This document shows, in pieces, positions 1 to 27,711 of a stretch of DNA of 31,022 nucleotides. Source of the stretch: a virus; IMG/VR virus record IMGVR_UViG_3300021091_000268, positions 1 to 31,022 of that record, one strand, 5' to 3'. The notes beneath the pieces are model-generated. The model saw only the letters and a list, made by a program, of their open reading frames with translations. It made no database searches and had not been told where the DNA came from. A program made the translations under genes and the position numbers. Every line of letters starts with the position of its first letter. Position 1 is the stretch's first letter.

Positions 1-588
1 AATACCCCCACCCCTTTGATTAATCCTTGTTTTATGTTCATTCAATGGAAATGACTCAAACATATCGTCATAATCATCTTTATGTACCGAAAATCTAATG
101 TTTTTTTGACTAAACGAACCGTCACCTAATCCAAGACCTAATAAATAAGAATCTATCGGAAGAATATCACCCCGTTCAAATTGAATTGGGTCAACGATTG
201 GTATTTGCCACTTATTATTACCATTTGAGTGTTTATAATGTGTTTCAATTTCATACTCTTTATTTTTATTGTGTCCAACCCCTTTAATTTTAATTTTGCC
301 ACCCTCATACATTTGTTTTGTTGATAAAACTAAAGATTTTTTTAGTCTTTCGTTTTTTCTATTTTTACCATAATTGGGTGATGACACAGACCATAAATGT
401 TCGTCACCAGCTAAAATTGAAAACCCATCATTAAATGTGATTTTATATGTTTCCTTTATTCCTTGTGCGAATACACCAATAACATTATGGGATTTACCGT
501 CACTACCAATAACCTTATCACCAATTTTAATGTCACCGATTTTTTTAGTTCCTGTTGGTGTATAAACTGGTGTTTTTATGGGTAAAAA
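1..588 (-). other. Intein inserted in the helicase P-loop (N-terminal splicing half plus start of LAGLIDADG endonuclease)
   Basis: Starting at the codon after the Walker lysine, the reading frame shows a block A-like stretch (FLPIKTPVYTPTG) and then KIGDIKIGDKVIGSDG, typical of Hint-fold N-terminal splicing domains. Block B-like DGFSILAGDEHLW follows, with the conserved His at intein residue 64 and a Trp at residue 66. Near 118-152 the motif LLGLGLGDGSF matches a LAGLIDADG dodecapeptide, so the intein probably carries a homing endonuclease. Residue 1 is Phe (ttt) instead of the usual Cys or Ser. Lack of an N-terminal nucleophile together with Trp two residues after the block B His is the pattern of class 3 inteins, but their block F Cys and block G Thr would lie beyond the left edge. 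The C-terminal splice junction and second extein are not visible. Confidence 0.85.
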
Positions 589-1098
589 TTTCCCAAGCCC
601 CATATCATCTGCCAAAATAAATCTTCTGGACCCAACAAGTTTTTCTATTGCTTCTTTTTGATGTGAAAGTGGTGGTCTATGATTGTATTTAGAATAATCA
701 ATAATAACCTCATCTACCGTTTGTGATTTAATTAAAGATGATTTAGGTACCCAAAACTCAGATAAATTATCTTTTTCAAAAAATTTACCCCAGATATGAT
801 ATGACTTATCTTTTTCAACAAGTAATTTTTCAATATAAACTTTTTCCGGAGTTTCAAACAAATATCTTTCTTGGGCGAACTTCTTTGCAAAGTAAGGATC
901 TAACTCAACCCATTTACGAGCAACCTTTGGTTTTGTATCAAAATACGCAACAACGTATTCGGCTTGGGTTCTTGTGGGATAAAACTTTTTATTAGTTTCC
1001 TTTTTGGTTTTCATATACAAAATATGGTTATTGGCACCACTATATGAATCCAATAAATCAAGAGCTTTGTATTCTATTAATTGTTTTTGTAATTCCAA
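1..1098 (-). CDS. SNF2-type helicase, N-terminal part, interrupted by an intein (partial, runs off left edge)
   Basis: The minus strand is open from 1098 down to base 1 (366 codons) and off the window. Residues up to about 170 look like the start of a SNF2-family DNA translocase: a Q-motif-like PPLSHQKEAIEKL is followed by motif I, LADDMGLGK, with the Walker lysine at residue 170 (codon 589-591). The Thr or Ser expected next is absent; the frame continues into an intein. The start is uncertain. A TTG at 1096-1098 gives a natural-looking N-terminus (LELQKQLIEY), with an in-frame stop just upstream; the first in-frame ATG is at 1012-1014. Phage SNF2-like helicases are usually assigned to DNA repair or recombination; that role here is inference. 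The gene is divergent from the neck gene at 1158 and shares a 59-base gap with it. Confidence 0.82.
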   Translation of the reverse strand, partial: MELQKQLIEYKALDLLDSYSGANNHILYMKTKKETNKKFYPTRTQAEYVVAYFDTKPKVARKWVELDPYFAKKFAQERYLFETPEKVYIEKLLVEKDKSYHIWGKFFEKDNLSEFWVPKSSLIKSQTVDEVIIDYSKYNHRPPLSHQKEAIEKLVGSRRFILADDMGLGKFLPIKTPVYTPTGTKKIGDIKIGDKVIGSDGKSHNVIGVFAQGIKETYKITFNDGFSILAGDEHLWSVSSPNYGKNRKNERLKKSLVLSTKQMYEGGKIKIKGVGHNKNKEYEIETHYKHSNGNNKWQIPIVDPIQFERGDILPIDSYLLGLGLGDGSFSQKNIRFSVHKDDYDDMFESFPLNEHKTRINQRGGGI

Positions 1099-25691: not shown

Positions 25692-26702
25692 ATGGCAATT
25701 AAAAAAACAGATTTTAGTACTCTAAAGAAAAAATTCTCTTCAGATGCAAAATACAAACCACAAAGATATTTTGATTTAGGACCAGCATTTTTGGATGCTG
25801 TAGGACTTCCAGGTCCCGCTATGGGACATATCAATATGTTTCTTGGACATTCAGACACGGGAAAAACAACTGCACTTATAAAAACGGCAGTTGATGCTCA
25901 GAAAAAAGAAATACTACCAGTTTTTATCATCACAGAACAAAAATGGTCTTTTGATCACTCGAAACTTATGGGGTTTGAATGTGAAGAAGTTGTCGATGAA
26001 GAAACTGGAGAATTAACTTGGGATGGTTTTTTCTTGTTCAATAATAATTTTAGTTACATTGAACAGATTACAGATTACATTAATGATTTATTAGACGCAC
26101 AAGAAAAAGGTGAATTAGATTATTCACTTTGTATTATGTGGGATTCAGTTGGTTCAGTTCCTTGTAAAATGACATATGAAGGTAAAGGTGGTAAACAACA
26201 CAATGCTTCAGTTCTTGCCGATAAAATTGGTATGGGTATTAACCAAAGAATTTCCGGATCAAGGAAAGCAGATTCAAAATACGAAAACACATTAATTATT
26301 GTTAATCAACCTTGGGTTGAATTACCTGACAATCCATTTGGTCAACCAAAGATTAAGGCTAAGGGTGGTGAAGCAATTTGGTTAAATTCATCTTTGGTGT
26401 TTCTATATGGAAATCAAAAAGGTGCTGGAACCACAAAAATTACCGCAACAAAAGACAAAAGAACTGTTAAATTTGCATCGAGAACAAAAGTATCTGTTAT
26501 GAAAAACCACATCAATGGACTTGGTTTTGAAGACGGAAAAATTATTGTCACACCACACGGATTTTTACCTGGAAAAGACGCAACAGAAGAAAAGAAATCT
26601 ATTGAAGATTACAAAAAAGAGTATGCCGAATATTGGAAAAATATTATTGGTGTAGATGGTGAATTTGATTTAAAAGAAGAAAAAGTTTATGAACAAGAAT
26701 AA
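25692..26702 (+). CDS. uvsX: UvsX-like recombinase (RecA family)
   Basis: This is a 336-residue RecA/UvsX-type strand-exchange ATPase. The Walker A motif is GHSDTGKTT (residues 52-60, Lys58), preceded by HINMFL. The Walker B strand is probably LCIMWDSVGSVP. The L2-region-like stretch LIIVNQPW and the later NSSLVFLYGNQKG and KFASRTKVSVMKN segments follow the UvsX order. It would load on gp32-covered ssDNA for recombination-dependent replication and repair. The start (MAIKKTDFSTL) follows an A-rich leader right after the SSB terminator. Its 3' end overlaps the methyltransferase start by 14 bases, so the two are translated together. It is somewhat shorter than T4 UvsX (391 residues). Confidence 0.88.
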   Translation: MAIKKTDFSTLKKKFSSDAKYKPQRYFDLGPAFLDAVGLPGPAMGHINMFLGHSDTGKTTALIKTAVDAQKKEILPVFIITEQKWSFDHSKLMGFECEEVVDEETGELTWDGFFLFNNNFSYIEQITDYINDLLDAQEKGELDYSLCIMWDSVGSVPCKMTYEGKGGKQHNASVLADKIGMGINQRISGSRKADSKYENTLIIVNQPWVELPDNPFGQPKIKAKGGEAIWLNSSLVFLYGNQKGAGTTKITATKDKRTVKFASRTKVSVMKNHINGLGFEDGKIIVTPHGFLPGKDATEEKKSIEDYKKEYAEYWKNIIGVDGEFDLKEEKVYEQE

Positions 26703-27711
26703 ATTAAAAGTAGTATCATTATTTTCAGGTTACGGAACACAAGAACTGGCACTTAAATATATTGGTGTTGATTATGAAAATGTAGCAAATTGCGACAATT
26801 TCAAACAAGCAAATGAGTGTTATGATGTTTTACACACAACAACAAATGGTAATCTTGGAGATATTAGAATGATTGATGAAAATAATTTTCCAGAATGTGA
26901 TTTATTAACATATTCATTTCCTTGCCAGGACATTTCGATTTCTGGTGTACAAAGAGGAATCAAAGAAGGAACAAGAAGCGGGTTATTATTTGAAGTTGAA
27001 AGATTGTTAAGTGCTAATAGACCAAAGTTTCTATTGATGGAAAATGTTAAAAATCTAATATCAAAAAATCACATAGACAACTTTCAAAAACACATCTATT
27101 TTTTAAGAGGTCTTGGATATAGTTCATACTGGAGAGTTCTTAACGGTGCTGATTTTAGTTGCCCACAGAATAGGGAAAGAGTTTTTATGATGTCAGTTTT
27201 AAATAGTAGTGTTGATGAGGTTAAAGAAAAGATGATGAATGTTGACAACTATAAAAGAACAAGAGTACCTATGAAATCTCATATTGAACAAAATTTTGAC
27301 GAATCATTAATTATTAATTGTGCTTTCACACCACATACACCAAAAAAACATACAATTTGTAAATTAGCCGGAAGAAGAAATGATGTTAAATATGATCAAG
27401 CAAGAAGAATTTATTCTGTTGATGGATGTTCACCCTGTCTAACAACAAGTGGTTCACCACAAATTTTAACTGAAAATGGTAGAGTAAGAACCATTACTGC
27501 AAGAGAAGGTTATAGATTTATGGGTGTTAGAGAACAAGATATTAATTTACTACTAACAACTTCGTTATCAAACACAGCACACGTTTCTTTAGCCGGTAAC
27601 TCAATCTGTGTTCCAGTTATGGAAGCGATATTTTCAGAATTCTTTTCGGAGTATATCGTAAAAAAAGAACCAATATTGTCAAATCCTTTTATTGACGAAT
27701 TTAATGACTAA
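26689..27711 (+). CDS. DNA (cytosine-5) methyltransferase
   Basis: The product has 340 residues with all main C5-methyltransferase motifs. Motif I is VSLFSGYGTQELAL (SAM binding). Motif IV is SFPCQDIS, with catalytic Cys79. Motif VI is MENVKN, with Glu118. Motif VIII is PQNRERVF (159-166). After a target-recognition region of about 100 residues come motif IX (RTITAREGYRFMG) and motif X (AGNSICVPVMEAIF). It should methylate a short DNA target with S-adenosylmethionine; the target is not predictable from sequence. No cognate endonuclease is nearby, so an orphan, protective role against host restriction is likely. The ATG lies inside the uvsX end and its stop overlaps the rnh start, so the gene is fully coupled to its neighbours. 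Confidence 0.93.
   Translation: MNKNKLKVVSLFSGYGTQELALKYIGVDYENVANCDNFKQANECYDVLHTTTNGNLGDIRMIDENNFPECDLLTYSFPCQDISISGVQRGIKEGTRSGLLFEVERLLSANRPKFLLMENVKNLISKNHIDNFQKHIYFLRGLGYSSYWRVLNGADFSCPQNRERVFMMSVLNSSVDEVKEKMMNVDNYKRTRVPMKSHIEQNFDESLIINCAFTPHTPKKHTICKLAGRRNDVKYDQARRIYSVDGCSPCLTTSGSPQILTENGRVRTITAREGYRFMGVREQDINLLLTTSLSNTAHVSLAGNSICVPVMEAIFSEFFSEYIVKKEPILSNPFIDEFND

Follow-up and report, generated by a model that had tools for sequence, protein, structure and literature searches.

Our analysis of the viral contig IMGVR_UViG_3300021091_000268 (31,022 bp in full, hereafter the window) is best explained as a whole by a class 3 intein of about 367 amino acids, which carries a LAGLIDADG nuclease with two motifs, is inserted between the P-loop Lys and Thr of an SNF2-type helicase of a myophage, and would splice, home and accommodate its first residue, a Phe, by packing with a Gly; we hold this overall reading with high confidence. 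The helicase gene is an open reading frame on the minus strand that runs from nt 1098 to nt 1 and is open at the contig end; its listed start is a TTG codon at nt 1098, and the true start is uncertain. The N-extein (589..1098, minus strand), comprising the first ~170 residues of the helicase, matched phrog_62 DNA helicase (E 1.4e-5) and is closed at nt 589 by ...RFILADDMGLGK, after which the intein begins with FLPIKTPVYTPTGTKKIGDIKIGDKVIG... Specifically, helicase motif I (the P-loop ILADDMGLGK, 589..618, minus strand) is interrupted after its Lys, and the intein part that follows is a splicing domain of the Hint type. Intein residues 1-196 are encoded at 1..588 (minus strand). Residue 1 (A:1) is a Phe with the codon TTT (586..588, minus strand), block B reads GDEHLW (391..408, minus strand), and the first LAGLIDADG (DOD) motif of the homing endonuclease domain reads LLGLGLGDG (118..144, minus strand; Pfam LAGLIDADG_3 on the relative L003, E 6.1e-5). 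These three features, including the Phe in place of Thr after LADDMGLGK, had been picked out in the first-pass annotation and were recovered at these positions. From the window reading frame, the alignment and the survey of relatives, block B supplies Gly B:7, which sits 60 positions beyond residue 1, His B:10 and, two residues past the His, Trp B:12. The window protein matched Hom_end_hint in Pfam (E 7.5e-8) and intein-bearing families in PHROG (E down to 1.2e-18), and a first scan found close relatives at 43 loci, so that a chance match can be set aside.

Since the contig breaks off on the left after intein residue 196, blocks F and G were read from relatives, the C-terminal half being taken from contigs L002 and L003. 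The overlap of L002 (127,688 bases) with the window, 534 nt, is free of differences, and L002 runs on to DSVCISVDSPDKLYVTEHCIVTHN/TTSTII and then the helicase motif LDEAH, the C-terminal reading being ...EDSVCISVDSPDKLYVTEHCIVTHN/TTSTIIAALE...LDEAH... (the slash marks the junction). It encodes a second LAGLIDADG motif, LQGLMDTDG, which lies beyond the window contig, and its block F is DSVCISVD with Cys F:4. L003, a complete relative that is 94% identical to the window part, shares with L002 the ending IVTHN/T, that is Thr G:5, a penultimate His, a terminal Asn and Thr +1, and its precursor matched SNF2-rel_dom (E 2.3e-27) and Helicase_C (E 5.5e-18) in Pfam. All the features that the first-pass annotation had suggested looking for past the contig end are present in L002: a Cys in block F, a Thr in block G, a terminal Asn, a Thr at +1 and, further downstream, SNF2 motifs. 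Between the right part of the window and L002 only short, chance-level matching stretches were found, and L002 is therefore likely a continuation on the left only. We infer that L002 carries either the continuation of the window's helicase gene or a near-identical gene, and the two contigs were kept separate. Besides the window, at least eight of the 43 contigs from the first scan (L002, L008, L025, L030, L039, L042, L043 and L044) end within the intein; these ends are likely assembly forks caused by a near-identical intein common to co-occurring phage strains.

The P-loop was uninterrupted at 77 of the 80 loci that were found with the helicase C-extein, mostly reading RFILADDMGLGKTTSTIIAALE, and because these sites are empty the intein can be placed between Lys and Thr and its position 1 is unambiguous. 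The empty alleles read ADDMGLGK/TTSTI (ADDMGLGKTTSTI or close variants), and some of them are 86-92% identical in their exteins to intein-bearing alleles. With its SNF2 ATPase and Helicase_C domains, the L003 helicase has an intact P-loop once the intein is removed, as in the 77 empty alleles. The inteins are often more similar to each other than their exteins are; in L017, for example, the exteins show 67% and 75% identity, the N-terminal splice part 87% and the C-terminal part 84%. Judged from these relatives, the intein appears to be intact and mobile.

Class 3 inteins lack an N-terminal nucleophile and carry a triplet of Trp B:12, Cys F:4 and Thr G:5. In our survey set of 294 unique full-length relatives, assembled from several scans, His B:10 and Thr G:5 were present in all sequences, Trp B:12 in 284, and Cys F:4 and Asn G:7 in 293 each, while the +1 residue was Thr in 224 and Ser in 68. 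By sequence, this residue pattern is the class 3 signature. An AlphaFold model of L003, computed with 75 diverse relatives and L003 as the first row, reached a pLDDT of 92.1 and a pTM of 0.90 (15 close relatives gave a pLDDT of only 62.9). When compared with VIA-align, its splicing domain overlaid on that of the class 3 Msm DnaB intein (6bs8) with Z 19.8 at 1.4 A over 123 of 125 residues and on that of Mch DnaB1 with Z 19.7, and the whole model matched PI-SceI with Z 26. The class 3 reading of the window intein is supported; it is the signature residues that separate class 3 from class 1, which the fold alone cannot do. The earlier proposal of a class 3 intein with an unusual aromatic first residue is supported by the triplet residues in L002 and the relatives and by the class 3 structural match.

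The identity of residue 1 was found to go along with that of B:7. Among unique sequences, Gly B:7 occurred with Phe1 in 16/16, with Asp in 5/5, with Glu in 6/7, with Met in 4/7, with Cys in 3/7 and with Leu in 5/18, and it occurred with Ala in 3/171, with Gly in 0/33 and with Ser in 0/10. Pooled, this amounts to 27/28 for Phe, Glu or Asp at position 1 versus 3/214 for Ala, Gly or Ser, and a comparison of Ala/Gly/Ser/Cys with the remaining residues at A:1 gave a Fisher p of 3e-24 (281 unique sequences). As this pairing was spotted post hoc, we put it to further tests. On a tree built without both columns, 10.5 independent pairs changed the same way and none the opposite way (p about 0.001), and on the tree of the N-terminal segment the numbers were 4.9 and 0. 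In 20 inteins from published phage genomes, fetched after the pairing had been noticed, Gly B:7 was present in 4/4 that begin with Met, Leu, Asp or Glu and in 0/16 that begin with Ala, Gly or Ser; L459 was left out because its residue-1 assignment is unsure, and L452, which has no Trp at B:12, was left out and kept apart from the class 3 inteins. A scan for mutual information placed the pair at rank 97 of 45,007 column pairs, and for each of the two positions the other was the second-best partner; as one among several couplings, the pair is not claimed to be unique. The pairing holds less well for Leu and Met, and it is in part a consequence of the N-terminal segment being exchanged as a whole. 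The Gly at B:7 had at first been regarded as atypical, a view that does not hold given its presence in all 16 Phe1 inteins and given that, according to PMC7891396, no residue is conserved at B:7 of class 3 inteins and either Gly or Asp can occupy it in functional ones.

Exchange of the N-terminal segment is best seen in L014. Its exteins are 66-76% identical to those of the window and L002, its nuclease region 91% and its C-terminal region 96%, whereas its N-terminal splice segment, with Gly1 and Asp B:7, reaches only 63%; furthermore, the tree of the C-terminal segment places L014 as sister to L003, and that of the N-terminal segment does not. These mosaic identities and the conflict between the trees indicate that the N-terminal segment has been swapped between inteins, carrying A:1 and B:7 together. 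Compared with L003 and the window, L014 has Gly/Asp instead of Phe/Gly at A:1/B:7, the N-terminal splicing segment having been replaced as a whole. Another close intein pair, L067 and L072, differs by Leu/Gly versus Gly/Asp at these positions.

That the pairing is a by-product of common ancestry and cassette exchange, and not of packing, is possible, though we consider it rather unlikely. Both positions lie in a segment that recombines as a block, as in L014 versus L003, and few supported pairs are left on the tree of the N-terminal segment; however, pairs changing the opposite way are absent from both trees, the rule holds in other host proteins and in the 20 published phages outside the discovery set, and N3:7 touches the N-junction in the crystal structure of AceL NrdHF (PMC7891396). 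The reason for the Phe1-Gly pairing may be one of packing, with room being made beside the scissile bond. We give about even chances to the wider proposal that residue 1 of class 3 inteins is free in its chemistry and not in its shape, being matched with B:7 (Gly for a bulky or acidic residue 1; Asp, Cys or Ser for Ala, Gly or Ser), that phages swap an N-terminal segment carrying both, and that functional Phe1 inteins result from this and are the first of their class recorded with an aromatic residue 1.

In the mechanism that we propose, Cys F:4, aided by His B:10, Thr G:5 and the packing residue Trp B:12, would attack the peptide bond between Lys(-1) and Phe1, the acyl group would be transferred to Thr+1, Asn G:7 would cyclise, and an O-N shift would rebuild GLGK-TTSTI and yield an active helicase. 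Phe1 would be chemically uninvolved and would be tolerated because Gly B:7 leaves room by the scissile bond. The endonuclease would move the element into empty helicase alleles; the features found for a LAGLIDADG homing endonuclease are the two motifs (one in the window, one in L002), the match to PI-SceI and a low dN/dS. Both splicing and DNA cleavage are what we infer for this element. In a class 2-like route, Thr+1 would attack the N-junction directly and Cys F:4 would be dispensable. Position 1 is indeed without a nucleophile, as in class 2, but such a route is very improbable, as the triplet is complete, Cys F:4 is kept in all but one of the 294 relatives, among mini-inteins the solved splicing domains with the highest Z are those of class 3, and Cys F:4 was obligatory in the three class 3 inteins tested (PMC5222942).

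The first-pass annotation had also raised the alternative of a dead intein, in which a recent change of Cys1 (TGT) to Phe (TTT) abolished splicing and, with it, the helicase. Relatives with Cys1 do exist (L010-L013, TGC), and Cys and Phe codons are one base apart. However, at the 41 first-scan loci where the N-junction is visible, residue 1 was Phe in 23 (the other 18 had Gly in 6, Ala in 6, Cys in 5 and Met in 1), both TTT and TTC are used, and L064 has Phe1 as well at about 62% intein identity; Cys1 is rare and is accompanied by the complete triplet in the same family. The Trp, Cys, Thr, His and Asn residues are all intact, and dN/dS between Phe1 relatives was 0.05-0.15 for residues 1-130, 0.10-0.17 for the nuclease and 0-0.10 for the C-terminal splice region, which points to purifying selection on the splicing and nuclease parts. 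Since its parts are apparently under selection and its structure matches class 3, a dead intein is highly unlikely and was rejected, and the window intein is probably active. The other doubt raised at first, an assembly or sequencing error hiding another residue such as Cys, would fit contigs that stop inside the intein, where assemblers fork, but is extremely unlikely and was likewise rejected, because Phe1 recurs at 23 loci with both Phe codons and three further contigs, L008, L043 and L044, have the same junction as the window, without a single difference in 447 or 177 nt of intein sequence and in 480 nt of extein sequence.

It is already known that class 3 inteins occur in SNF2 helicases and at phage helicase P-loops. 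The intein of Deinococcus radiodurans Snf2, which splices efficiently (PMC3196547), resembles the window intein by description in being of class 3 and in an SNF2 helicase, but has a bacterial host and not a phage. The mycobacterial DnaB inteins (Msm DnaB1, 6bs8; Mch DnaB1, 6rix/6riy) share the class 3 splicing domain (overlay Z 19-20, 1.4-2.0 A); unlike the window intein they are mini-inteins without a nuclease, and Mch DnaB1 combines Ala1 with Asp B:7 where the window has Phe1 with Gly B:7. Helicase inteins of Brevundimonas phage Domovoi, Erythrobacter phage L02 and PhiPA3 (gp233) are also located at the P-loop and have the complete triplet, the terminal HN and a +1 Thr, with about 30% identity over the precursor and Met, Gly or Ala as residue 1. 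PI-SceI (the Sce VMA intein) has the same two-domain layout of a splicing domain and a LAGLIDADG nuclease, but is a class 1 intein of a yeast ATPase and not a close relative. Phe1 was absent from all 22 published phage records fetched, and in the papers searched no Phe1 class 3 intein was found tested or reported; 1,701 class 3 inteins are counted in PMC7891396. The window adds an intact nuclease-bearing family of class 3 inteins. At a single insertion site in one helicase these inteins begin with Phe, Gly, Ala, Cys, Met or other residues, which amounts to a mutagenesis series made by nature for studying how class 3 inteins work. The rule linking A:1 and B:7 may be the part that specialists have not seen and, if confirmed, would help to predict active class 3 inteins and guide splicing tools with chosen junction residues.

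Several relatives depart from the common residue pattern. The helicase inteins of L010-L013, L075, L081, L084 and L085 have Cys1 together with the full triplet, that is mixed class 1 and class 3 features. In this they match class 3 inteins of a mixed type, starting with Cys or Ser, that Tori and Perler reportedly described in 2011, from which the window differs by its Phe1. In L090-L092 and L095, Phe replaces Trp at B:12, with Cys F:4 and Thr G:5 intact. The element at L094:1350-2492 has Cys at B:12, Gly at F:4, Asp for the terminal Asn and a +1 residue other than Ser, Thr or Cys, and looks like a former class 3 intein that persists as a non-splicing homing endonuclease gene.

The window also encodes tail sheath, T4-type baseplate, DnaB-type helicase and 5'-3' exonuclease domains, on account of which we read the virus as a T4-like myophage, probably of Bacteroidota. 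Its RecA-like protein matched only four records, all of them genomes of Flavobacterium phage immuto, at 44% identity. A gene for a C5 cytosine DNA methyltransferase (26689-27711, plus strand; Pfam E 4.9e-57) is flanked by those for the RecA-like protein and the 5'-3' exonuclease.
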